Assembly (NCBI GenBank): GCA_003963145.1
Contig: RXJJ01000010.1
Location: 29,558 to 93,557 of the forward strand
Source of the DNA: Bradyrhizobiaceae bacterium
GTDB taxonomy: Bacteria > Pseudomonadota > Alphaproteobacteria > Rhizobiales > Xanthobacteraceae
Reading direction: 5' to 3'
Length of the DNA: 64,000 bases
Under the pieces are notes generated by a model. That model saw only the letters and a program-made list of their open reading frames with translations. It ran no database searches and was not told where the DNA came from. Both the position numbers and the translations under genes were made by a program. This document shows positions 28,933-49,641 of this stretch, one piece after another; position 1 is the stretch's first letter, and the number at the start of each line of letters is the position of its first letter.

Positions 28933-30210
28933 TTACTCAGCAGCGGCCAGAGGCTGGTCGCCGATCGCACCCGATGCGCGAACTTCGCCGATCTGAGCAT
29001 CGGAGAACTTCAGCACATCGCGCAGGATTTCTTCAGTGTGCTCGCCGAGCAGCGGCGAGCGTTCCACGACTGTCGGGGAGTCCGACAGCTTGATCGGGTT
29101 GCCGACCGAGATGTACTCGCCGCGCACCGGATGATCGACCTTGACCAGCGTGCCGGTCGCGTACAGCGACTGGTCCTCGGCGATTTCCTTCATCGACAGG
29201 ATCGGGCCGCACGGAATGTCGAACTTGTTGAGAATGTCCATCGCCTCGAACTTGGTCTTGGTCATGGTCCACTGTTCGATACGCCCGAAAATCTCGTTCA
29301 GGCGCGGCAGGCGGGCCGCCGGCTTGGCGTAGTTCGGATCGGTCTTCCAGGTCGGCTCGCCGATCACGTCGCAGATCTTCTCCCAGACCGGAGCCTGGGT
29401 GATGAAATACAGATACGCGTTCGGATCCTGCTCCCAGCCCTTGCACTTGACGATACGGCCCGGCTGGCCGCCGCCGGAATCGTTGCCAGCGCGCGGGGTG
29501 GCGTCGCCGAACGGAATGCCCTCACCGAACTGGCTGTATTCCTTGAGCGGACCGTGCGCGAGGCGCTGCTGGTCGCGCAGCTTGACGCGGCAGAGATTGA
29601 GCACGCCGTCCTGCATCGCAGCGGTGACGCGCTGACCCTTGCCGGTCATGGTGCGCTGATAGAGTGCGGTGACAATGCCGAGCGCGAGGTGAAGGCCGGT
29701 ACCGGAATCGCCGATCTGCGCGCCGGTGACCAGCGGGAAGCCGTCACGGAAGCCCGTGGTGGAGGCTGCGCCACCGGTACACTGGGCGACGTTCTCGTAA
29801 ACCTTGCAATCCTCGTAGGGACCGGGGCCGAAACCCTTGATCGAGGCAACGATCAGCTTCGGGTTGATCTTGTTGATGGTCTCCCAGGGGAAGCCCATGC
29901 GGTCGAGCACGCCGGGGCCGAAATTCTCGACCAGCACGTCGCACGACTTGATCAGCGCGGTGAGAACTTCCTTGCCCTTGGCGTTCTTGGTGTCGAGCGT
30001 GATCGAACGCTTGTTGTGGTTGAGCATCGTGAAATAGAGGCTGTCCGCGTTCGGAACGTCCTGCAGCTGGCCGCGGGTGATGTCGCCCACGCCCGGACGC
30101 TCGACCTTGATGACGTCGGCGCCGAACCATGCCAGCAACTGGGTGCAGGTTGGGCCGGATTGAACATGCGTGAAGTCGAGGATTCGAACACCCTGTAGCG
30201 CCTTGGTCAT
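28933..30210 (-). CDS. frc: Formyl-CoA:oxalate CoA-transferase
   Basis: [40 protein letters not shown]; catalytic-Asp motif [15 protein letters not shown]; 425 aa; beside oxc. Start moved to 30210. Confidence 0.93.
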
Positions 30211-30289: not shown

Positions 30290-32020
30290 TCACTTCTTTT
30301 TCTTGACGACGCTTTGCGGATTGAGATTGCCGATGCGGCCGCTCTCGCTGCCTGCGCCCGGATCAATCACAGCGTTGATAAGAGTCGGCTTGCCCGAATC
30401 CATCGCCTCGTTCACGGCCCGGCGAAGTTCGTCCGGGGTGGTCACGTTGGCTCCGATGCCACCGAAAGCTTCCATCATCTTGTCGTAGCGGGCACCCTTC
30501 ACGAACACGGTCGGTGCCGGATCGCCGCTACCCGTCGGATTGACATCGGTGCCGCGATAGATGCCGTCATTGTTGAAGATGACGATACAGACCGGCAGGT
30601 TGTAGCGGGCGATGGTTTCGACTTCCATGCCCGAGAAACCGAAGGCCGAGTCGCCTTCCAGAGCCAGAACCGGCTTGCCGGTCTCGATCGCAGCCGCGAT
30701 CGAATAGCCCTGGCCGATGCCCATGATGCCCCAGGTGCCGACGTCGAGACGCTTGCGAGGCTTGTACATATCGACAACGCCGCGCGCGAGATCGAGCGTG
30801 TTGGCGCCTTCGTTCACGAAGATCGCATCCGGGCGCTCCTTGATGACATCGCGAAGCACACCCAGCGCGCCATAGTAATCCATCGGCGTGTTGTTGTTGC
30901 GCAGCTTCGGCGCCATCTTGGTGATGTTGTCGTTCTTCTTCGTCGTCACCGCGGTAGTCCAGTCGGACGCGGCGGGCGTCCACTTGTCGCCCATGCCGTT
31001 GAGAAGCGCGGTCACGCAGGAGCCGATGTCGCCGACAACCGGCGCCACGATCTCGACGTTCGAGTCCATTTCCTTCGGCTCGATGTCGATCTGGATGAAC
31101 TTCTTCGGAGCGTCGCCCCAAGCCTTGCCCTTGCCGTGACTGAGCAGCCAGTTCAGGCGCGCGCCGATCACCATGACGACGTCGGAATCCTTGAGAACGG
31201 TCGAGCGCGCAGCGCCCGCGCACTGCGGATGGGTGTCGGGAAGAATGCCCTTCGCCATGCTCATCGGCAGGAATGGAATGCCGCTCTTTTCAATGAGTGC
31301 CTTGAGCGCGTCGTCGGCCTGCGCGTAGGCAGCGCCCTTGCCGAGAATGATGAGCGGCTTTTTCGCACTCTTGAGCACGTCGAGCGCGCGCTTGACCGAC
31401 TCCGGAGCCGGAATCTGCGCCGGAGCAGCGTCGATGACCTTGACCAGCGACTTCTCGCCGGCTGCGGCGTCCATCACCTGGCCGAACAGCTTGGCGGGCA
31501 GATCGAGATAAACACCGCCGGGACGGCCGGAAACCGCGGCACGGATCGCGCGGGCGACGCCGATGCCGATGTCCTGCGCGTGCAGCACGCGGTAGGCCGC
31601 CTTGCACATTGTCTTGGCGACGGCGAGCTGGTCCATTTCCTCGTAGTCGCCCTGCTGAAGGTCGACGATCTCGCGCTCGGACGAGCCGGAAATCAGGATC
31701 ATCGGGAAACAGTTGGTCGTGGCGTGAGCCAGCGCGGTCAGGCCGTTGAGGAAGCCCGGCGCAGAAACCGTGAGGCAGATGCCCGGCTGTTTTGTGAGAA
31801 AGCCAGCGATCGACGCGGCGTAGCCGGCGTTCTGCTCGTGGCGGAATGAAATGACCCGGATGCCCTCGGCCTGCGCCATGCGGCCGAAATCCGTCACCGG
31901 AATGCCCGGCACGCCATAAATGGTTTTGACGCCGTTCAGCTTGAGCGCGTCGATGATAAGATGGAAGCCGTCTGTCAGCTCCTGATCATCGGTGTTCTGT
32001 ACGACTGCTGCGACTGACAT
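30290..32020 (-). CDS. oxc: Oxalyl-CoA decarboxylase
   Basis: ThDP enzyme; [84 protein letters not shown]. Confidence 0.93.
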
Positions 32021-32733: not shown

Positions 32734-34044
32734 ATGACGGTATCGGCGGGTAATGACGCTACGCGCGTCAACGACAGCTATCGATGGATGCAATTGGCCA
32801 TCGGTGTCGGCTGCATGGTGATGATTGCTAACCTTCAATACGGATGGACGTTCTTCGTCCCCGACATTCAGAAAAAATTCGGCTTCGATCGCGCTGCGAT
32901 TCAATGGGCCTTCACTCTCTTCGTATTGTTCGAAACCTGGCTGGTGCCGATCGAAGGCTGGTTCGTGGATAAATACGGTCCGCGTCTGGTCGTCCTTTTC
33001 GGAGGCGCGCTGTGCGCGATCGGCTGGGTCATCAACTCCTACGCCACCTCGCTCAACGCTTTCTATATCGGTCAGGTGATCGCAGGCATCGGCGCGGGCG
33101 CTGTGTACGGCACCGCCGTAGGTAACGCCCTGAAGTGGTTTCCCGATAAACGCGGTCTTGCCGCCGGCATCACCGCCGCGGGCTTCGGTGCAGGTTCGGC
33201 TCTCACGGTCGCCCCGATCCAGGCCATGATCAAGGACTCCGGCATTCAGGCCGCATTCTTTAACTTCGGCATCGGTCAGGGCCTGATCTGTATGGTTCTG
33301 GCGCTGTTCCTTGCTGCTCCGAAGAAGGGTCAGGTCCCTGCTCCGGTTCAGAACGAAAGCATCCAGCAGACCCGCCGCGATTACAGTCCCGGCCAGGTTG
33401 TGAAGACACCGATCTTCTGGCTGATGTATCTCATGTTCGTGATCGTCGGCGCGGGCGGCCTGCTTGTGACCGCCAACCTCAAGCCGATTGCAGCCGACTG
33501 GAAGATCGACGCCATTCCGGTGACGCTGATCGGCCTGACGATGACGACGGTGACATTCGCTGCGACCATCGACCGCATCCTCAACGGTTTGACCCGGCCC
33601 TTCTTCGGCTGGATCTCGGACAAGATCGGCCGCGAGAACACAATGTTCATCGCCTTCGGCATGGAAGGCATCGGTATCTATCTGCTTTACCTGTGGGGCC
33701 AGAACCCGGTTTGGTTCGTCATCCTCTCGGGCTTCGTGTTCTTCGCATGGGGTGAGATTTATTCCCTCTTCCCGTCGACCTGCACCGACACGTTCGGTTC
33801 GAAATTCGCAACCACCAACGCGGGCCTGCTCTATACCGCGAAGGGCACGGCTGCGTTGCTCGTTCCGTTCGGAAACTATCTGCAACAGTACACCGGCAAC
33901 TGGGACACCGTGTTCCTGGTCGCTGCCGGCGGCAACATCCTGGCATCCTTGCTGGCTCTGCTTGTGCTCAAGCCATGGCGCAAAGTGGTTGTCGAGAGGA
34001 GCCACGCCACGATGCCGGCAACCGCCGGACAATACGCAACCTGA
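32734..34044 (+). CDS. oxlT: Oxalate/formate MFS antiporter (OxlT family)
   Basis: 12-TM MFS; YGWTFFVPDIQKKFGFDRAAIQWAFTLFVLFETWLVPIEGWFVDKYGPR; Lys in a late helix LLYTAKGTAALLVPFGN; adjacent to oxc/frc. Confidence 0.87.
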   Translation: MTVSAGNDATRVNDSYRWMQLAIGVGCMVMIANLQYGWTFFVPDIQKKFGFDRAAIQWAFTLFVLFETWLVPIEGWFVDKYGPRLVVLFGGALCAIGWVINSYATSLNAFYIGQVIAGIGAGAVYGTAVGNALKWFPDKRGLAAGITAAGFGAGSALTVAPIQAMIKDSGIQAAFFNFGIGQGLICMVLALFLAAPKKGQVPAPVQNESIQQTRRDYSPGQVVKTPIFWLMYLMFVIVGAGGLLVTANLKPIAADWKIDAIPVTLIGLTMTTVTFAATIDRILNGLTRPFFGWISDKIGRENTMFIAFGMEGIGIYLLYLWGQNPVWFVILSGFVFFAWGEIYSLFPSTCTDTFGSKFATTNAGLLYTAKGTAALLVPFGNYLQQYTGNWDTVFLVAAGGNILASLLALLVLKPWRKVVVERSHATMPATAGQYAT

Positions 34045-36484: not shown

Positions 36485-37683
<1,199 letters not shown>

Positions 37684-37684
<1 letters not shown>

Positions 37685-38592
37685 TGTCTGTGATGATCGA
37701 CAAGAACACGAAGGTCATTTGCCAGGGCTTCACCGGCAAGAACGGCACCTTCCACTCCGAGGCCGCGATCGCCTACGGCACCAAGATGGTCGGCGGCACT
37801 TCGCCCGGCAAAGGCGGCTCGACCCATCTCGGCCTGCCGGTGTTCGATACCGTCAAGGAAGCGCGGGAAAAAACCGGTGCCGATGCCAGCGTCGTGTACG
37901 TGCCGCCGCCGGGCGCCGCGGATGCGATTTGCGAAGCCATCGATGCGGAAGTGCCGCTGATCGTCTGCATCACCGAGGGCATTCCGGTGCTCGACATGGT
38001 GCGGGTGAAGCGCGCCCTCTCCGGCTCGAAATCTCGCCTGCTCGGACCGAACTGCCCCGGCGTCGTCACCGCCGGCGAATCGAAGATCGGCATCATGCCG
38101 GCCAACATCTTCAAGCCGGGCAATGTCGGTATCGTGTCGCGCTCCGGCACGCTGACCTACGAAGCGGTGTTCCAGACCTCGCAGGTCGGCTTCGGCCAGA
38201 CCACCGCGGTCGGCATCGGCGGCGATCCGGTGAAAGGCACCGAGTTCATCGACGTGCTTGAGATGTTCCTCGCCGACGACAAGACTCACTCGATCATCAT
38301 GATCGGCGAGATCGGCGGTTCGGCCGAGGAAGACGCCGCCCAGTTCCTCAAGGACGAGGCCAAGCGCGGCCGCAAGAAGCCGATGGTCGGCTTTATCGCG
38401 GGCCGCACCGCCCCTCCCGGACGGCGCATGGGCCATGCCGGCGCGATCGTCGCTGGTGGCAAGGGCGACGCGGAATCCAAGATCGCGGCGATGGAATCGG
38501 CCGGGATCGTGGTGTCGCCGTCGCCTGCACGGCTCGGCAGCACGCTGGCCGATCTGCTCAAGGGCGCTAAGCCTGAAAAGCGCTCGGCGTAG
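37684..38592 (+). CDS. sucD: Succinate(or malate)--CoA ligase alpha subunit, copy 1
   Basis: [56 protein letters not shown]; start overlaps the sucC stop. Confidence 0.9.
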
Positions 38593-38710: not shown

Positions 38711-39490
38711 GTGCCGCCGATGCCGGATCAGACCAGAGAGGCTGCCCTCGTGAAACCCCGCGTCCAGCGAGCGCCCTCAGCCAAGACGCCAGCCAAGTCC
38801 ACACCCGAACTCGTGGTCGGCCGGTTCGCACCGGAACAGACTTTCAAGACCCGTGCCTATGAGGCGCTCAAGCACGCCATCCTCGAGATGGATATTTACT
38901 CTTCGGCGGAACCGACCTGGATCGACGAGCGCCAGCTCTCCGAACAGCTCGGCGTCAGCCGCACCCCGGTGCGCGAAGCCATCGTCATGCTCGAGCATGA
39001 GGGACTGGTGAAATCGGTCGCGCGCAAGGGCGTGATGGTCCTGAAAAAGACCCGCCGCGAAGTGATCGACATGATCCATGCGTGGGCAGCGCTGGAAAGC
39101 ATGGCGGCGCGCCTCGCAACGCTGCATGCCAGCGACGAGTCCATCGCGGAACTCCGCAAATTGTTCGAGGGCTTCAACGAGGGCCACAAGCCCGCCGATC
39201 ACCTCAGCGAGTATTCGACCGCGAACATCAAGTTCCACCAGAGCATCGTCAAGCTCAGCGGCTCGCAGGTGCTGGTGGACATGACCGAGCAGGTGCTGCT
39301 GCATGTGCGCGGTATCCGCCGCATCACCATCGGCCGCGACGACCGCGCCTCGCGCTCGATCGTCGATCATCTTGCGATCATCGACGCGATCGAAAAGCGC
39401 GACACCGAGCGCGCGGCGAAACTCTCGCGCGACCATACGCTGGGCCTCGCCGACTATGTCGAGGCGCACAGCGAAGGCATTTTTGACTGA
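38711..39490 (+). CDS. GntR family (FCD-type) transcriptional regulator
   Basis: wHTH WIDERQLSEQLGVSRTPVREAIVMLEHEGLVKSVARKGVMV plus helical C-terminal domain. Confidence 0.9.
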   Translation: MPPMPDQTREAALVKPRVQRAPSAKTPAKSTPELVVGRFAPEQTFKTRAYEALKHAILEMDIYSSAEPTWIDERQLSEQLGVSRTPVREAIVMLEHEGLVKSVARKGVMVLKKTRREVIDMIHAWAALESMAARLATLHASDESIAELRKLFEGFNEGHKPADHLSEYSTANIKFHQSIVKLSGSQVLVDMTEQVLLHVRGIRRITIGRDDRASRSIVDHLAIIDAIEKRDTERAAKLSRDHTLGLADYVEAHSEGIFD

Positions 39491-39549: not shown

Positions 39550-40323
39550 TTACTGCACAAACGTGTTGTGCAGGCTGCCGATCCCCTCGATCGCCACTTC
39601 CATCTGATTGATCGGCTCCTTGATCGTGCCGACGCCCAGCGACGTGCCGCAGCAGATCAGATCGCCCGGCAGCAGCGTCATGTCGTGCGAGATCATGCTC
39701 ACCAGTCTGTGCGGGGGGAAGATCATGTCCGAGAGCGGATAGTTCTGCCGCTCCTCGCCGTTCAGGATCATACGCACATGAAGCGTGGTCGGATCGATCC
39801 CAACGGCGATGGCGGGACCGAACGGGCCGAAATGATCGAAGCTCTTGGCGCGCACCCATTGCGCGAAGGTGGCATCCTTCGAGATGATGTCGGCGGCGGT
39901 GACGTCGTTGACGCAGGTGTAACCAAAGATCGCCTTCGCCGCCTCGTCCTCCGACGCGTTGGCGCAACGCTTGCCGATCACGATTCCAAGCTCGGCCTCG
40001 AACACCACGCGCCCGTCATAGGATTTCGGCCGCGGGATCGACGCGCCCGGCGAGGCGATGCTGGAATTGGCCTTCATCAAATAGAGCGGCTCGGCCGGCT
40101 CGGCGACTTTCAGCTTTGCCGCCAGCGCGTGGAAATTGTTCCACAGCGCAATCACCTTGGTGGGCTCCGACGGCGGCAACAATTCGACGCCTGAAAGCTC
40201 AATCGTCTGCCCGGTGGCCTTTGGCGAGGTGTACATATCGCCGCTATGTTCGGCGATGTGACCTTCCTTCAGCGTGCCGAAGCCCGTCTTTCCGCCCGCG
40301 CGATAGCGCACCCATTTGGTCAT
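39550..40323 (-). CDS. Fumarylacetoacetate hydrolase family protein
   Basis: VFEAELGIVIGKRCANASEDEAAKAIFGYTCVNDVTAAD; FGPFGPAIA; LLPGDLICCGTSLGVG. Confidence 0.88.
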   Translation of the reverse strand: MTKWVRYRAGGKTGFGTLKEGHIAEHSGDMYTSPKATGQTIELSGVELLPPSEPTKVIALWNNFHALAAKLKVAEPAEPLYLMKANSSIASPGASIPRPKSYDGRVVFEAELGIVIGKRCANASEDEAAKAIFGYTCVNDVTAADIISKDATFAQWVRAKSFDHFGPFGPAIAVGIDPTTLHVRMILNGEERQNYPLSDMIFPPHRLVSMISHDMTLLPGDLICCGTSLGVGTIKEPINQMEVAIEGIGSLHNTFVQ

Positions 40324-40352: not shown

Positions 40353-41765
40353 TTAAACGCTGATAACGCGAAGATTGTTGGTCGATCCCGACTTGCCGAA
40401 CGGCACGCCGGCTACCACGACGATGCAGTCGCCCGGTTTGGCGAGGCCGCTGTCCTTGGCGTGGCGTGCCGCCTCGCTGACCATCTCGTCATAGTTGGCG
40501 ATCTCGGGCGTCACCATGCCCTGCGATCCCCACAAGAAGGCAAGCCGGCGAGCGGTGGCCTCGCTCGGGGTCAGACTCAGAATGGGAATGCGCGAACGCT
40601 GGCGCGCAATGCGATACGCCGTCGTGCCGCTCGAGGTGAAGGCCACGATACACGCCGCGTTGATTGAGTTGCCGACCTCCGCGGCCGCAGCGGCGATCGC
40701 ATGCTGCGGCAAGGGTTCAATCTCCGGATGCAGCGCCTCGACAATCTGCCGGTAGGCCTTGTGTTGTTCGGTGCGCCGGATGATGCGGTCCATGGTCGAG
40801 ACCGCCTGCACCGGGTACTGGCCCGAGGCGGATTCCGCCGACAGCATCACCGCGTCCGAACCGTCATAGATCGCGGTCGCGACGTCCGACGCCTCGGCGC
40901 GTGTCGGCGTCGGCGTGTGGATCATCGATTCCAGCATCTGGGTGGCGATAATCACCGGCTTGCCCGCGAGACGGCATAGCCGGACCAGATCCTTCTGCGC
41001 GCCCGGCACGTCCTCGGGCGGAATTTCGACGCCCAGATCGCCGCGCGCCACCATGATCGAATCCGACAGATTGACGATGTCCTCGATCGTCGTCATCGCG
41101 GCGGGCTTTTCGATCTTCGACATCACCCCTGCCCGGCCATTCACGAGCGAATGCGCCTCGATCAGATCGGATGGCCGCTGCACGAAAGAGAACGCAACCC
41201 AGTCGACGCCAAGATCGAGACCGAATTTCAGATCGGCCCGGTCCTTCTCGGTGATCGGCGACAGCTTGAGCAGCGTATCGGGAAGATTGACACCCTTGCG
41301 ATCGCTGACGACGCCGCCGGTCACGACCTTGGCCTCGATCACGTCATTCGTTCCGCCCGTCGCGGACAGACGAACCTTGCCGTCATCGATCAAAAGCTGG
41401 TGACCCGGCATGATCGCTTCGAAGACTTCCTTGTGAGGAAGCGGCAAGGCGCCGTCCCTGGCCGCGGCGGAGAGAATGAATTTCACGCTGTCGCCGGTCT
41501 TCAACTCCTTCTTGCCGCCCTCGAGCGGCCCGAGACGGATTTTCGGGCCCTGCAAATCCTGCAGCACTGCGATCGGCGTGCCGACCTCCTTCTCCAGAGC
41601 GCGGATCGCGTTGTACCGCGCGCGATGATCCTCATGGGAGCCGTGGCTGAAATTGAGGCGGAACATATCGACGCCGGCCTCGAACAATTTGCGGATCATC
41701 TCCGGCGACGAGCTCGCCGGTCCCAGTGTGGCAACGATCCTCGCGCGCCGATTGCGCCCCATCAT
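40353..41765 (-). CDS. pyk: Pyruvate kinase
   Basis: RRARIVATLGPASSSPEMIRKLFEAGVDMFRLNFSHG; IMVARGDLGVEIPPEDVPGAQKDLVRLCRLAGKPVIIATQMLESM. Confidence 0.93.
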   Translation of the reverse strand: MMGRNRRARIVATLGPASSSPEMIRKLFEAGVDMFRLNFSHGSHEDHRARYNAIRALEKEVGTPIAVLQDLQGPKIRLGPLEGGKKELKTGDSVKFILSAAARDGALPLPHKEVFEAIMPGHQLLIDDGKVRLSATGGTNDVIEAKVVTGGVVSDRKGVNLPDTLLKLSPITEKDRADLKFGLDLGVDWVAFSFVQRPSDLIEAHSLVNGRAGVMSKIEKPAAMTTIEDIVNLSDSIMVARGDLGVEIPPEDVPGAQKDLVRLCRLAGKPVIIATQMLESMIHTPTPTRAEASDVATAIYDGSDAVMLSAESASGQYPVQAVSTMDRIIRRTEQHKAYRQIVEALHPEIEPLPQHAIAAAAAEVGNSINAACIVAFTSSGTTAYRIARQRSRIPILSLTPSEATARRLAFLWGSQGMVTPEIANYDEMVSEAARHAKDSGLAKPGDCIVVVAGVPFGKSGSTNNLRVISV

Positions 41766-41931: not shown

Positions 41932-42951
41932 TCAGGCCGTCGCGGCCTGGGGGACAGGCGCTTCTTCGGGAAACGTCGGATAAACGCCATTCGAGCGGCC
42001 CATCTGCTGGGCCAGCGCGAGAACGGTGTCGATATAGGGCGTCTGCACCTTCGCCAGACGGCCCATTTCCTGCACCGCACTCAAAAGCGCGTCGATCTCA
42101 AGCGGGCGCTTCTTGTCGAGGTCCTGAAGCATCGAGGTGCGATGCGCGCCGACACCTGCCGCGCCGTTGATGCGGCGCTCGACATCGACCCGGAAATTCG
42201 CGCCGAAATGATGGCCGATCTGCTGGGCCTCCAGCATCATGTTGCGCGCGATCGCGCGCGTGCCGGGATCGGTGGCGACGATATCGAGCGTCGCATGGGT
42301 CAGCGCCGAAATCGGATTGAAGCACAGATTGCCCCACAGCTTGATCCAGATGTCGTCGCGGATGTCGTCATAGATGCGCGGCTTGAGGCCGCCCTTCGCC
42401 AGCGTGTCAGCCAGAGCCTGCAGACGCGGGCTCTTGGTGCGGTTCGGCTCGCCGATGCCGAACTGGTCGCCGTAGATGTGCTTGATGACGCCCGGCTCGG
42501 TGATTTCGGTCGCGGGATATACTGTGGCACCGATCACGCGCTCGGGACCGATCGCGTTCCACTGGCGATTGCCCGGATCGACGCTCTGCAAACGCAGTGA
42601 CAAAAATTTGTCATCGAGGCCATAGAAGTACCACCACGGCACGCCGTTCTGCGCGGTCATCACCGCCGTGTTGGGTCCGAACAGCGGCTTCATCTGCTCG
42701 GCCGATTCCCAGGCCTGATGCGCCTTGAGGCCGACAATGATGAAATCCTGCGGGCCGAGTTCTTTCGGATCGCTGGTCGCGCGAATATCCGCGATACGCT
42801 CTTCGCCGTTGATGAGGAGCTTGAGCCCGTTGGCCTTGATCGCTGCGAGATGCGCGCCGCGTGCCACGATCGACACGTCGACACCGCCCTGCTTCATCAT
42901 CACGGCCATATAGCCGCCGATCGCGCCGGCACCGAAAATACAGACCTTCAT
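41932..42951 (-). CDS. 2-dehydropantoate 2-reductase-like (PanE/ApbA family); candidate oxalyl-CoA reductase
   Basis: MKVCIFGAGAIGGYMAVMMKQGGVDVSIVARG NADP fold; TAQNGVPWWYFYGLD; IWIKLWGNLCFNPISALT. Confidence 0.85.
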   Translation of the reverse strand: MKVCIFGAGAIGGYMAVMMKQGGVDVSIVARGAHLAAIKANGLKLLINGEERIADIRATSDPKELGPQDFIIVGLKAHQAWESAEQMKPLFGPNTAVMTAQNGVPWWYFYGLDDKFLSLRLQSVDPGNRQWNAIGPERVIGATVYPATEITEPGVIKHIYGDQFGIGEPNRTKSPRLQALADTLAKGGLKPRIYDDIRDDIWIKLWGNLCFNPISALTHATLDIVATDPGTRAIARNMMLEAQQIGHHFGANFRVDVERRINGAAGVGAHRTSMLQDLDKKRPLEIDALLSAVQEMGRLAKVQTPYIDTVLALAQQMGRSNGVYPTFPEEAPVPQAATA

Positions 42952-43020: not shown

Positions 43021-43908
43021 TTAACCCTTCGCAACCTCGTGTTTCGCCATGATCTCGAGCGCGCGAACCATTGCCGAATGATCCCAGGCCTTGCCGCCAT
43101 GCGCCGCGCAGGAGTTGAACAATTCCTGCGCCGTCGCCGTGTTCGGCAACGACACGCCGAGCGCGCGTGCGCCCTGCAAAGCCAGGCTGAGATCCTTCTG
43201 GTGCAGTTCAATCCGGAAGCCCGGATCGAAGGTGCGCTTGATCATGCGCTCGCCGTGCACTTCGAGAATTCGCGACGCCGCAAAGCCGCCCATCAGAGCC
43301 TGCCGCACCTTCGCGGGATCGGCGCCGGCCTTGGAAGCGAACAGCAGCGCTTCCGCCACCGCCTCGATGTTGAGCGCGACGATGATCTGGTTGGCCACCT
43401 TGGTGGTCTGGCCGTCGCCATTGCCGCCGACATGGGTGATATTCTTGCCCATCAGTTCGAAATAGGGCTTCACCGTCGCGAAGTCCTCGGCATGACCGCC
43501 GACCATGATGGTCAGCGACGCCGCCTTGGCGCCGACCTCGCCGCCGGAGACGGGCGCATCGAGATAACGCGCGCCGAGCTTTTCGACCTTCTCGGCGAAC
43601 TTCTTGGTCTCGATCGGCGAGATCGAGCTCATGTCGACGACGATCTTGCCCTTCGACAGACTCTGCGCGACGCCGTTTTCGCCAAACAGCACGGCTTCGA
43701 CGTGCGGTGTGTCCGGCACCATGATGATGATGATATCGGCGTGCTTGGCGACCTCTGCGGCGTTGGCTGCCACTTTTCCCTTCGACTTGAGATCGGCGGG
43801 AACGCCTTCGATGGTATGAAGATAAACCGTGTGGCCGGCGGCCAGAAGATGGCTTGCCATCGGTGCACCCATGGTGCCGAGACCGATAAAGCCGAGCGTT
43901 TTAGACAT
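43021..43908 (-). CDS. glxR: Tartronate semialdehyde reductase (2-hydroxy-3-oxopropionate reductase)
   Basis: LGFIGLGTMGAPMASHLLAAGH; DAPVSGGEVGAKAASLTIMVGG; between hyi and the PanE-like gene. Confidence 0.9.
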   Translation of the reverse strand: MSKTLGFIGLGTMGAPMASHLLAAGHTVYLHTIEGVPADLKSKGKVAANAAEVAKHADIIIIMVPDTPHVEAVLFGENGVAQSLSKGKIVVDMSSISPIETKKFAEKVEKLGARYLDAPVSGGEVGAKAASLTIMVGGHAEDFATVKPYFELMGKNITHVGGNGDGQTTKVANQIIVALNIEAVAEALLFASKAGADPAKVRQALMGGFAASRILEVHGERMIKRTFDPGFRIELHQKDLSLALQGARALGVSLPNTATAQELFNSCAAHGGKAWDHSAMVRALEIMAKHEVAKG

Positions 43909-43947: not shown

Positions 43948-44718
43948 TTATTTCGGCAACCAGCCAAGTCCCGCGAAGGTCTCGCCCCTGGGCTTGTACT
44001 CGGCGCCGATCCAGCCCTTGTAACCGATCCTGTCCAGAAAAGCGTAGAGGAACGGGTAGTTGATTTCGCCGGTGCCCGGCTCGTTGCGGCCCGGATTGTC
44101 GGCCAGCTGGATATGGGCGATTTTCGGCAAATTCGCTTCGATGGTGCGGGCGAGATCGCCCTCCATGATCTGCATGTGATAGATGTCGTACTGATCGTAC
44201 AGATTGTCCGATCCGACCTCCGCGATCAGCGCGATGGCCTGCTTTGTCGTCGTCAGGAAGAACCCCGGAATGTCGCGGGTGTTGATCTGCTCGACGAGCA
44301 GCTTGATGCCCTCGTTCTTGAGCGCCGCGGCCGCGAATTTCAGGTTCGACACCAGCGTGTCGTGATGCTTTTTCGCATCCGCGCCTTGCGGCAAAACGCC
44401 CGACAGGCAATTCACCTGCGTACATTTGAGCGCCTTGGCGTAAGAGATCGCCGTCTTCACGCCTTCCTTGAACTCGTCAACACGATCCGGAAAGATCGCG
44501 ATGCCGCGCTCGCCCTTCTCCCAGTTGCCCGCAGGCAGGTTATGGAGCACCTGGGTCAGGCCATGCGTCGAAAGCTGCTTGGCAAGCTCCTCGGCCGGAA
44601 ACGGATAGGGAAACAGATATTCGACGCCCTTGAAGCCGGCCTTCGCCGCGGCGGCGAAACGCTCCATGAACGGCACTTCGTTGAACAACATCGTCAGATT
44701 GGCTGCAAAGCGCGGCAA
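43948..44718 (-). CDS. hyi: Hydroxypyruvate isomerase
   Basis: PRFAANLTMLFNEVPFMERFAAAAKAGFKGVEYLFPY; LVEQINTRDIPGFFLTTT; adjacent to gcl. Confidence 0.92.
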   Translation of the reverse strand: MPRFAANLTMLFNEVPFMERFAAAAKAGFKGVEYLFPYPFPAEELAKQLSTHGLTQVLHNLPAGNWEKGERGIAIFPDRVDEFKEGVKTAISYAKALKCTQVNCLSGVLPQGADAKKHHDTLVSNLKFAAAALKNEGIKLLVEQINTRDIPGFFLTTTKQAIALIAEVGSDNLYDQYDIYHMQIMEGDLARTIEANLPKIAHIQLADNPGRNEPGTGEINYPFLYAFLDRIGYKGWIGAEYKPRGETFAGLGWLPK

Positions 44719-44760: not shown

Positions 44761-46554
44761 TCAGCCCTCCACGGGCTGAAGCTTGCGGGTGTTTTCCGCC
44801 GGCACATCGTCGAGCGGCAGATCGAGAACTTCCTCGAATTCCACGATGTTGTCGATCTCTGTTCCCATCGCGATATTGGTGACGCGCTCCAGAATGAACT
44901 CGACCACCACCGGCACGCTGAACTCGGCCATCAGTTCGCGCGCCTTTTTAAAGGCCGCCTGCGAATCTTTCGGATCGCGCACCCGGATCGCCTTGCAGCC
45001 GAGCCCCTCCGCCACCGCTACGTGATCGACGCCGTAAGCGCCAAGCTCGGGCGCGTTGATGTTCTCGAACGACAGTTGCACGTGATAATCCATGTCGAAG
45101 CCGCGCTGGGCCTGACGGATCAGGCCGAGATACGAGTTGTTCACGACGACGTGGATGTAGGGCAGCTTGAACTGCGCGCCGACCGCAAGCTCCTCGATCA
45201 GGAACTGGAAGTCGTAGTCGCCTGACAGCGCGACGATCTGCCGGTCCGGATCGGCAGCACGCACGCCGAGCGCCGCAGGGAGCGTCCAGCCCAATGGGCC
45301 CGCCTGACCGGCGTTGATCCAGTTGCGCGGATGATAGACGCCGAGGAACTGGCCACCCGCGATCTGCGACAGGCCGATGACGCTGACATAACAGGTGTCG
45401 CGTCCGAATGCCTTGCTCATCTCTTCATAGACGCGCTGCGGCTTGATCGGCACGTTGTCGAAATGGCTCTTGCGCAGCATGGTGCGCTTGCGGTCCTGAC
45501 ACGCCGCCGGCCACGCCTGACGCTCCTTGAGCCTGCCTGCCTTGCGCCAGTCTCTTGCGACGGCAACGAACAATTCGAGCGCGGCCTTGGCGTCGGAGAC
45601 GATGCCGAGATCGGGATTGAACACGCGGCCGATCTGCGTCGGCTCGATGTCCACATGCACGAACTTGCGGCCCTTGGTGTAGGTTTCGATCGAGCCGGTG
45701 TGGCGATTGGCCCAGCGGTTGCCGATGCCGAGCACGAAATCGGATTCCAGCATCGTGGCGTTGCCATAGCGGTGGCTGGTCTGCAGGCCGACCATACCGG
45801 CCATCAGCACGTGATCGTCCGGAATCGCGCCCCAGCCCATCAGGGTCGGCACCACGGGGATGTTCGCGATCTCGGCGAACTCGACCAGCAGGTCCGACGC
45901 GTCGGCGTTGATGATGCCGCCACCCGCCACGATCAGCGGCTTCTCGGAGGCGTTGAGCATCTCCAGCGCCTTCTCGGCCTGCTTGCGGTTCGCGGACGGC
46001 TTGTAGACCGGCAGGCTGGCATAGGTCTCTTCGTCGAACTCGATCTCGGCGAGTTGCACGTCCAGCGGCAGGTCGATCAGCACCGGGCCGGGACGGCCCG
46101 AGCGCATGATGTGGAACGCCTGCTGGAACACACGCGGCACCAGCGCCGGCTCGCGCACGGTCACGGCCCATTTGGTCACGGGCTTGGCGATCGATTCGAT
46201 ATCGACCGCCTGGAAATCCTCCTTGTAGAGCCGCGCGCGGGGCGCCTGCCCGGTGATGCAGAGGATCGGAATGGAATCCGCGCTGGCCGAGTAGAGCCCG
46301 GTGATCATGTCGGTCCCGGCCGGGCCGGAGGTGCCGATGCACACGCCGATATTGCCGGATTTGGCCCGGGTGTAACCCTCGGCCATGTGGGCGGCGCCCT
46401 CGACGTGGCGGGCGAGAATGTGGCCGATCGAGCCACGCTTCTTCAGCGCCGAATACAGCGGATTGATCGCCGCTCCGGGAACCCCGAACGCCTGCGAGAT
46501 TCCCTCTTTCTCAAGAACGATGACGGCGGCGTCGACTGCACGCATGCGGGCCAT
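44761..46554 (-). CDS. gcl: Glyoxylate carboligase (tartronate-semialdehyde synthase)
   Basis: [58 protein letters not shown] with Val in place of the usual ThDP-activating Glu, as in E. coli Gcl. Start at 46554. Confidence 0.95.
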
Positions 46555-46749: not shown

Positions 46750-47592
46750 ATGAAAACGCTGGAGCTGAGCCGCAAGCGCGGCAGACCCCGGGCCTTCAAT
46801 CCGCAAAACAAGGCGGGGTCCATTCAGGCGCTCGACCGCGGCCTGACCCTGCTGCGGGTGGTGGCCGAATCCGACGGTCTGACCCTGACCGACCTCGCCC
46901 AGCGCACCGGCATCGCCCCCTCCACCGTCCACCGCCTGCTGTTCACCCTGCAGGCCCACCGCTTCATCGCTCACGACGAGGAGCGCGGATTGTGGTTCAT
47001 CGGCGTTGACGCCTTTCAGATCGGGACGGCCTTCCTGCGCAATCGGCGCCTCGCCGGTATGGGACGCGAGACCATGCGGCAGTTGATGGAGCAGACCGGT
47101 GAGACCGTGAACCTCGGCATCGAGGATGACGGCGAAGTGGTGTTCATCTCGCAGATCGAGAGCCACAACACGCTGCGCGCGTTCTTCCGCGCCGGATCGC
47201 GCAGCCTCATGCATGCCTCCGGCGTCGGCAAGGCGCTGCTCGCGGGATTGTCCGAAGCCCGCGTGAGGCAGATTCTCTATTCGAAGGGGTTGCTGCGTTT
47301 CACCGACAGAACATTGATCGACCCAGCGGCTCTGTTCGCCGAACTTGCGGAAAGCCGGCGGCGCGGCTGGGCGGTGGATGACGAGGAGCGCACGCTCGGC
47401 ATGCGCTGCGTCGCCGCGCCGATCTATAACGAACTCGGCGAAGTCATCGCGGCTGTGTCGATGTCCGGACCCGCGGTGCGTATTACCTCACCGCGCCTCG
47501 GCGAGTTCGGTCCCATCGTGATGCGCGCGGCGGACCAGATCACGGCGTCCATCGGCGGGATTTTGCCGAAACGCGCCGATCAGCTCAATTGA
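46750..47592 (+). CDS. IclR family transcriptional regulator
   Basis: GSIQALDRGLTLLRVVAESDGLTLTDLAQRTGIAPSTVHRLLFTLQAHRF; HASGVGKALLAGL. Confidence 0.92.
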   Translation: MKTLELSRKRGRPRAFNPQNKAGSIQALDRGLTLLRVVAESDGLTLTDLAQRTGIAPSTVHRLLFTLQAHRFIAHDEERGLWFIGVDAFQIGTAFLRNRRLAGMGRETMRQLMEQTGETVNLGIEDDGEVVFISQIESHNTLRAFFRAGSRSLMHASGVGKALLAGLSEARVRQILYSKGLLRFTDRTLIDPAALFAELAESRRRGWAVDDEERTLGMRCVAAPIYNELGEVIAAVSMSGPAVRITSPRLGEFGPIVMRAADQITASIGGILPKRADQLN

Positions 47593-48466
47593 TCTGCCTG
47601 AGCGCCTGCCGCATGGTCGCACCGACAAGATGCGAGCTTGGCGCGACACGCACGCCGGCTTTCTCAAGCGCGGCGATCTTGCTGCTGGCGTCGCCGCGCC
47701 CGAACATGGTCAACGTGCCGGAATGGCCCATGCGGCGCTCGGGCGGTGCATGCTGTCCGGCGATCAGCGCGACGATCGGCTTGGTCACCTTGCGTCCCTG
47801 CAGGAATTCGGCGACCTCCTGCTCTTCCGTGCCGCCGATCTCGCCGATCAGGACGATGCCCTGCGTCTCGGGATCGGCGAGGAACAGCTCGACGCACTGA
47901 ACCATGCTGACGCCGTGGATCGGGTCGCCGCCGACGCCGACCGTGGTGGACTGGCCCATGTTCTCGGCCGATACCTGCGCGACCACTTCGCTGGTCAGCG
48001 ACGCCGAGCGCGATACGATGCCGATGCCGCCGGGCCGCTCGCTGCCGGTCGCCATCACGCCGATCATGCAAACGTCGGGCGCGAGAATCCCTTGAGAATT
48101 CGGACCGATCAGCCTTGTCCGCGAGCCGTCAAGCGCCTGACGCACCCGCACCATGTCGAGCGCGGGCACGCGCTCGGTGACGACCACGACCAGCGGCACC
48201 TCCGCCTCGATCGCCTCGATCATCGCATTCGCCGCGTTGGCGGGCGGCACGAAAATCATGCTGGCGTTGGCTCTCGTGTCCGCGACCGCTTTTTTCAACG
48301 TGTCGAAGATCGGCAGGTTGAGATGCGAGCGGCCGCCCTTGCCCGGCGTGACGCCGCCGACCACGGTGGTGCCGTATTCCATCATGCGCGCGGTGTGGTG
48401 CGTGCCGGCCCAGCCGGTCATGCCCTGGCAGACAACGCGGGTGTCCTTGTCGACGAGAATGGCCAT
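47585..48466 (-). CDS. SucD-like acyl-CoA ligase alpha subunit, divergent copy 2
   Basis: MAILVDKDTRVVCQGMTGWAGTHHTARMMEYGTTVVGGVTPGKGG; GPNSQGILAPD; RRMGHSGTLTMFGRGD (phospho-His retained). Confidence 0.85.
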   Translation of the reverse strand: MAILVDKDTRVVCQGMTGWAGTHHTARMMEYGTTVVGGVTPGKGGRSHLNLPIFDTLKKAVADTRANASMIFVPPANAANAMIEAIEAEVPLVVVVTERVPALDMVRVRQALDGSRTRLIGPNSQGILAPDVCMIGVMATGSERPGGIGIVSRSASLTSEVVAQVSAENMGQSTTVGVGGDPIHGVSMVQCVELFLADPETQGIVLIGEIGGTEEQEVAEFLQGRKVTKPIVALIAGQHAPPERRMGHSGTLTMFGRGDASSKIAALEKAGVRVAPSSHLVGATMRQALRQIN

Positions 48467-48468
48467 GT

Positions 48469-49641
48469 TCAAGCTCCCTTCTGCGCGAGCGCGACGGCCC
48501 GTGTCGCGGCTGTCCACATGTCCGGGCAGTTTTCCACCTTGCAGCCGAAGCTGACGAAACGCTCGCGCGCGAACTCGGCATTGTTGCCGGCGAGCCGCGC
48601 CACCACCGGAAGCGAACGCCCGGTGCGGCGAATGGCGATGCCAAGACCTTCCGCGATGGTGTCGCAGGGTTGCATGCCGCCGCCGTGGACATTGAGGAAA
48701 ATCGCCTTCAGCGACGGATTGTCCAGAAGAAGCCCGAAGCCGTAGGCAACATCGAGACTGGTTGCGGTGGTGCGGATATCCATGAAGTTGCCCGGACGCC
48801 CGCCCGCCGCGCTGACGAGATCAACGGTGGCGAGGCCAAGCCCCGCGCCATTGGCGACGAGCCCGATATTGCCGTCCATGCTGACATAATTGAGCTGATG
48901 GCGCTGCGCCTCGACTTCGCGCTGATCGATATCGTCCTCGTCGCGCAAGGCGGCGAGATCCGGGTGGCGGAACAGGGCATTGTCCTCCAGCACCATTTTC
49001 ACATCGAGCGCCTGGAAGCTCCCGTCGCGCAGGACCGCAAGTGGATTGATCTCGATCAGGCTGGCGTCGAGTTCGACAAAGGCGCGGCGCAGGCCGTCGA
49101 TCATCGTCTCGAAAGCGTCAACCGATCCGGCATCGACACGGATTCTGTTGGCGAACGCCTTGACCTCGTCGGCGCGCCGCGTTCGCCCGTCGCCGAGACC
49201 GAGACGCTCCAGCTTCAGTTCGCCGCGCGCCGCGCGTTCCTCGATGTCGTCGCCGCCTTTGGCCGCGCCGAGCAGCGTCACCTGTCCGGTCGATCCGTCG
49301 ACCAGCATCGCGACATAAAGATCGCGCACGCGCTCGACGCCGACCTCAAGATAAAGCCGCTTGACGACACGGCCCGCCGCGCCGGTCTGCGCGGTGACAA
49401 GCTTCTTGCCGAGCAATTTTGCGGCCGCGGCCTTCGCCTCGCTCGGCGAATGCACCAGCTGGACACCGCCGGCCTTGCCACGCGCGCCGGCGTGGACCTG
49501 TGCCTTCACGGCGATGGTAGGTGAACCAAGTTCGGCCGCGATGGCGCTGGCCTGATCGGCGGTAATGGCAACCTTGCCGCCGGGCGTCGGCAGCCCGTAG
49601 CCGGACAGAATCTCTTTGGCCTGAAACTCGTGCAGATTCAT
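48469..49641 (-). CDS. SucC-like acyl-CoA ligase beta subunit, divergent copy 2
   Basis: MNLHEFQAKEILSGYGLPTPGGKVAIT; AVKAQVHAGARGKAGGVQLV; altered loops FMDIRTTATS and NVHGGGMQPCD. Confidence 0.85.
   Translation of the reverse strand: MNLHEFQAKEILSGYGLPTPGGKVAITADQASAIAAELGSPTIAVKAQVHAGARGKAGGVQLVHSPSEAKAAAAKLLGKKLVTAQTGAAGRVVKRLYLEVGVERVRDLYVAMLVDGSTGQVTLLGAAKGGDDIEERAARGELKLERLGLGDGRTRRADEVKAFANRIRVDAGSVDAFETMIDGLRRAFVELDASLIEINPLAVLRDGSFQALDVKMVLEDNALFRHPDLAALRDEDDIDQREVEAQRHQLNYVSMDGNIGLVANGAGLGLATVDLVSAAGGRPGNFMDIRTTATSLDVAYGFGLLLDNPSLKAIFLNVHGGGMQPCDTIAEGLGIAIRRTGRSLPVVARLAGNNAEFARERFVSFGCKVENCPDMWTAATRAVALAQKGA

Follow-up and report, generated by a model that had tools for sequence, protein, structure and literature searches.

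The panE2/apbA2-type gene described here lies in a 64,000-nt stretch of DNA from a Bradyrhizobiaceae bacterium (hereafter the window) and most probably encodes a PanE2/ApbA2-type oxalyl-CoA reductase (EC 1.2.1.17, also known as CoA-acylating glyoxylate dehydrogenase) that uses NADP(H), a reading given a probability of about 0.88. For this genome, we infer the function from homology, gene context and the conservation of catalytic residues; reaction, reversibility and growth phenotype are taken from orthologues. The enzyme kind is already known, and the link from oxalyl-CoA to glycerate is not new.

The orf started with ATG at nt 42951, preceded by a GGAGGG ribosome-binding-like stretch, and ended with TGA at nt 41932 on the minus strand, the strand being a point on which the earlier note was silent; its 339 codons contained no internal stop. 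The predicted protein (the window protein) matched PF02558 with 89.8 bits and PF08546 with 98.7 bits, both above the Pfam gathering scores, and NCBIfam NF005089 with 472 bits, far above chance at a cut-off of 223. It is a member of the ketopantoate reductase (ApbA/PanE) superfamily. The orf and the profile matches confirmed that an intact gene of this family is located between pyk on the 3′ side and glxR-hyi-gcl on the 5′ side in the same strand, and the reported proximity to oxc and frc held as well, the two genes being 10–13 kb away (Table 1). The genes gcl, hyi, glxR and panE2 were codirectional, with 42, 39, and 69 bp between successive genes. No promoter-like sites were observed in a promoter scan, and a terminator-like hairpin was located at the panE2 stop, such sites being about as frequent in shuffled sequence.

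Table 1. Features annotated around panE2, with coordinates in the window
Gene	Predicted product	Position	Strand	Basis
frc	formyl-CoA:oxalate CoA-transferase	28933..30210	-	TIGR03253, 724 bits; start inferred
oxc	oxalyl-CoA decarboxylase	30290..32020	-	TIGR03254, 1019 bits; closest solved structure M. extorquens OXC, 7ayg
oxlT	oxalate/formate antiporter	32734..34044	+	TIGR04259, 660 bits
	ADP-forming acyl-CoA ligase, acetate-CoA ligase type, 710 aa	34340..36472	+	TIGR02717 and relatives, below equivalog cut-offs
sucC1-sucD1	canonical-type succinate-CoA ligase	36485..38592	+	NF001913, 589 bits; NF004230, 457 bits
	GntR-family regulator of oxalate clusters	38711..39490	+	profile match, context in relatives
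fah	FAH-family hydrolase	39550..40323	-	profile match; near panE2 in 18/87 clade loci
pyk	pyruvate kinase	40353..41765	-	TIGR01064 above cut-off; start inferred
panE2	panE2/apbA2-type, probable oxalyl-CoA reductase, 339 aa	41932..42951	-	ORF, profile matches, homology, context, tree
glxR	tartronate semialdehyde reductase (2-hydroxy-3-oxopropionate reductase)	43021..43908	-	NF011633/TIGR01505 above cut-off; 69 bp upstream of panE2
hyi	hydroxypyruvate isomerase	43948..44718	-	TIGR03234 above cut-off
gcl	glyoxylate carboligase	44761..46554	-	TIGR01504, 1167 bits; start inferred from profile match
	IclR-family regulator, divergent from gcl	46750..47592	+	NF045644 BhcR, 380 bits, cut-off 350
sucD2	divergent succinate-CoA-ligase alpha paralogue, candidate oxalate-CoA ligase subunit	47585..48466	-	profile match, context, co-occurrence
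sucC2	divergent succinate-CoA-ligase beta paralogue, altered active-site loop NVHGGGM	48469..49641	-	profile match, context, co-occurrence, loop comparison

Several neighbours had features of their own. The IclR-family regulator passed the BhcR model cut-off, and no beta-hydroxyaspartate cycle genes were found among the genes annotated here. The sucC1D1 pair may be the only canonical succinate-CoA ligase of this genome, the other two sucC homologues being only 37% identical. The 710-aa ligase is 73% to 91% conserved in oxalate clusters, with oxalate or formate as candidate substrates, and the loci in which the FAH-family gene recurs near panE2 include those of Methylobacterium and Phyllobacterium.

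PanE2 of Methylobacterium extorquens AM1 has been identified as an oxalyl-CoA reductase (Schneider et al. 2012, as cited in PMC8411744 and PMC9485241). Purified M. extorquens PanE oxidized glyoxylate with CoA and NADP+ (Km 0.36 mM) in a reaction described as reversible (PMC9485241), and PanE2 served as oxalyl-CoA reductase in a coupled in vitro assay (PMC8411744). In Cupriavidus necator, the doubling time on oxalate was 6.5 h and rose to 10 h upon deletion of apbA2, as compared with 13 h upon loss of the glycerate pathway (PMC7486775); the link between oxalyl-CoA and Gcl thus has genetic support in this organism, because the two losses resemble each other. The M. extorquens and C. necator proteins share 51% identity and 66% positives (PMC7486775).

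Through the solved M. extorquens OXC (7ayg), an M. extorquens-like genome was found whose OXC is 99% identical to it. This genome encoded one close homologue of the window protein (46.5% identity), in the gene order oxlT, fah, panE2, and AMP-forming acyl-CoA ligase. The homologue shared 51.3% identity and 67.0% positives with that of C. metallidurans, values that match the published 51% and 66% and thereby support its assignment as M. extorquens PanE2, which is probable rather than certain. The window protein was 58% identical to the C. metallidurans homologue, encoded inside an oxalate cluster, and is therefore closer to the studied oxalyl-CoA reductases than to true PanE (23% identity to the E. 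coli protein), although an identity of only 46.5% to the presumed biochemically studied enzyme counts against equating their functions.

The M. extorquens PanE2 resembles the window protein in belonging to subfamily NF005089, in its conserved active-site residues, and in having oxlT and FAH-family neighbours. It differs in that the presumed oxalate activator of the M. extorquens-like genome is an AMP-forming ligase and in that the window gene, unlike its M. extorquens-like counterpart, sits behind gcl-hyi-glxR. M. extorquens uses the serine cycle. The C. metallidurans homologue, as in the window, lies beside frc, oxlT, sucC1D1, the 710-aa ligase and fah, but with another thiamine-diphosphate enzyme instead of oxc and no adjoining gcl. 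ApbA2 of C. necator, a CoA-acylating glyoxylate dehydrogenase, is likewise paired with the glycerate pathway (PMC7486775).

The motifs GAGAIGGYM, IWIKLWGNLCFNPISALT and QNGVPWWYFYG, quoted in the earlier note, were all found in the window protein. The last of these had been considered unusual; however, PWWYF or PYWYF is common to nearly all relatives with an oxalate context and constitutes the normal signature of the family. In these relatives it starts a shared insert of about 22 residues after the NG motif. E. coli PanE (PDB 1ks9 and 1yjq) has the same fold family, the NADP-binding GxGxxG and the Lys-Asn-Asn-Ser-Glu active site, but lacks this insert. The fold of the window protein was taken as settled by its 40% identity to PDB 3ghy, an uncharacterized 'ketopantoate reductase protein', presumably from Ralstonia, which possesses a PWWFF insert. 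In an alignment, the window protein retained the catalytic Lys, Asn, Ser and Glu residues of E. coli PanE (K204, N102, N208, N212, S273 and E285), and Leu took the place of E. coli N194 throughout the 57 clade rows examined, the window protein included. The PWWYF insert and this Leu are candidates for CoA or substrate recognition. Because the PanE active-site residues are all kept, hydride transfer to the carbonyl of a 2-oxo acid is plausible. Oxalyl-CoA may be viewed as a 2-oxo acid carrying S-CoA as its R group, to the carbonyl of which a ketopantoate reductase site would transfer hydride; the resulting thiohemiacetal would collapse to glyoxylate and CoA, and a catalytic cysteine would not be needed. 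True PanE has the same residues, which therefore do not prove the substrate by themselves.

Alternatively, panE2 could encode a true ketopantoate reductase serving pantothenate synthesis and lie in this cluster by happenstance, which would agree with the database name of the family, 2-dehydropantoate 2-reductase, and with the retention of the ketopantoate-site residues other than E. coli N194. This alternative is very improbable in view of the low identity to E. coli PanE (23%), the location of the pantothenate genes, and the context in dozens of genomes, which consists of oxalate genes, not pan genes. In the same genome, panB and panC were located on contigs C29 and C25, respectively, both away from the contig of panE2, and a more PanE-like gene (L003), which shares 27% to 29% identity with the window protein as well as with E. 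coli PanE, was situated about 13 kb from panC. Since these genes lie elsewhere, a role in pantothenate synthesis makes little sense at this locus, as had been argued. The genome also possesses a second PanE2-type gene (L002, C8:150370–151371), 68% identical to the window protein and with no oxalate genes nearby. As this paralogue sits in an unrelated place, panE2 may be redundant, and its existence counts to some extent against the assignment as oxalyl-CoA reductase.

In a tree of 66 rows, the window protein fell within a 29-row clade (100/99), which was contained in a 38-row clade (100/98) together with cluster genes of Cupriavidus, Azospirillum and Phyllobacterium; the Methylobacterium genes were further out in the same large group. 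An exclusive 57-row clade of oxalate-context genes without 3ghy was absent from the tree and was not rejected by the AU test (p 0.42). Joining of the window protein with E. coli PanE gave an AU p of 0.084, with a very long E. coli branch and weak rooting. In this phylogeny, of the kind suggested in the earlier note, the window protein was nested among oxalate-context genes, and the attachment of the distant outgroup was weakly determined. It grouped neither with E. coli PanE nor with pan genes, although the AU test on these long branches is not decisive. The one same-genus genome searched had only a 61% version of panE2, situated in that genome's oxalate cluster. This suggests exchange or replacement of panE2 versions within the family. 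No relatives of the window protein were found on viral contigs.

The window protein and OXC were each used to search about 398 genomes from this order, the own genome not counted. Of these genomes, 64 had a gene with at least 55% identity to the window protein, 83 had oxc, and 47 had both (odds ratio 23, Fisher, relatedness uncorrected), and 23 of 67 such genes were within 20 kb of oxc. Neighbourhoods within 10 kb were inspected at 87 clade loci and 9 outgroup loci. At 26 of the clade loci there was oxc, frc, oxlT, the 710-aa ligase or the alternative thiamine-diphosphate enzyme; a ligase closely related to the one that adjoins M. extorquens panE2 occurred at 27, SucC2D2 at 19, and gcl, hyi or glxR at nine. 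Either oxc/frc/oxlT or the M. extorquens-type ligase was present at 48 clade loci, a number rising to 63 once SucC2D2 and gcl/hyi/glxR were counted, as against none of the 9 outgroup loci with any of these oxalate, ligase or glyoxylate-pathway neighbours. The remaining 24 clade loci, many of them on short contigs, had no diagnostic neighbour, which tells against the oxalyl-CoA reductase assignment. The order gcl-hyi-glxR-panE-pyk-fah recurred in another family (f20, locus L083).

The position of panE2 directly after glxR in the window and in L083, L089 and L118, and beside gcl and hyi in L110 and L111, would also suit another reductase of the glyoxylate/glycerate pathway, acting on tartronate semialdehyde, hydroxypyruvate or glyoxylate. 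There is little to recommend such an enzyme, however: tartronate semialdehyde reduction is already carried out by GlxR, gcl/hyi/glxR accompany only nine of the 87 clade loci versus 48 with oxalate or ligase genes, and deletion of apbA2 affects growth on oxalate (PMC7486775).

With panE2 as an oxalyl-CoA reductase, the cluster can be read as a route for oxalate use. OxlT would import oxalate, and Frc and/or a CoA ligase would form oxalyl-CoA, part of which would be decarboxylated by Oxc to formyl-CoA for energy. Another part would be reduced by PanE2 to glyoxylate, and Gcl-Hyi-GlxR would convert glyoxylate to glycerate, thereby allowing a soil-type bacterium to make biomass from oxalate. The proposal that this enzyme links oxalyl-CoA to Gcl is supported by homology, by context in many lineages and by published experiments on orthologues, and would by analogy apply to the present protein.

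The reaction is reversible, and its direction in vivo is not fixed by sequence. The same enzyme might run mainly in reverse, from glyoxylate, CoA and NADP+ to oxalyl-CoA, draining glyoxylate through Oxc/Frc or yielding oxalate, succinyl-CoA and ATP. Such a direction has been observed in vitro for the M. extorquens enzyme (PMC9485241), and it is suggested for C. necator, whose growth on glycolate is supported by the oxalyl-CoA route in the absence of the glycerate pathway (PMC7486775). In P. fluorescens, acylating glyoxylate dehydrogenase is linked with oxalate CoA-transferase and succinyl-CoA synthetase (PMC2752808), the window cluster having sucC1D1, and a similar mode is suggested in outline for Bradyrhizobium, which on arabinose induces gcl-hyi-TSR and shows increased Frc and Oxc (PMC5996035). 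The pntAB genes for NAD(P) transhydrogenase were close to panE2 in five loci (L021, L022, L024, L080 and L089), directly downstream in most, which fits the use of NADPH and suggests that NADPH supply matters for oxalate assimilation. Reversal as the main direction is unlikely, though not negligibly so: OxlT imports oxalate, panE2 sits directly behind the glyoxylate-consuming gcl-hyi-glxR, and the pntAB neighbours in relatives could supply NADPH. The first two of these features favour reduction during growth on oxalate.

The genes accompanying panE2 differed among lineages. In many genomes without oxc nearby, an AMP-forming acyl-CoA ligase gene adjoined or overlapped panE2 (L025:8472–10981; L122–L140; L078:9464–12054). 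The best profile match of this ligase was a fatty-acid ligase model, below cut-off, and it is probably a bacterial oxalyl-CoA synthetase. In L021 (22880–24634, minus strand), L023 (16627–18282, plus strand), L096, L098 and L114, a thiamine-diphosphate enzyme with about 25% identity to Oxc was encoded where oxc would be, beside frc in most of these loci, and was 78% to 81% conserved between classes. Its closest solved structures are 2-hydroxyacyl-CoA lyases, and it is possibly an alternative oxalyl-CoA decarboxylase.

The divergent pair SucC2D2, encoded on the minus strand, differed from the usual type in two loops, both consistently across relatives: NVHGGGM was present in place of NIFGGI in the beta subunit, and SRSASLTSEVV replaced another 11-residue loop in the alpha subunit. 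Elsewhere in the order there were 44 sucC2D2-type genes with at least 45% identity, of which 34 had oxc or panE2 within 10 kb, and several of the remaining ones were on short contigs; sucD2 directly preceded panE2 in ten loci. SucC2D2 and the AMP-forming ligase next to panE2 were never found together among the 87 clade loci. As a tentative proposal, SucC2D2 could act as an ADP-forming oxalate-CoA ligase and feed PanE2, in place of the AMP-forming oxalyl-CoA synthetase of other lineages. A literature search of partial coverage found no such ligase; if the proposal is true, SucC2D2 would be a previously unrecognized, alternative way to activate oxalate. This pair is the freshest lead obtained here and deserves more attention than panE2.

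For the family as a whole, many genes of the panE2 type are mislabelled in databases as pantothenate (vitamin B5) reductases. A usable rule for re-annotation follows, in which a PanE of the PWWYF type, if encoded beside oxalate or CoA-ligase genes, is assigned to the assimilatory branch of oxalate use. Surveys of oxalotrophy score mainly oxc and frc.
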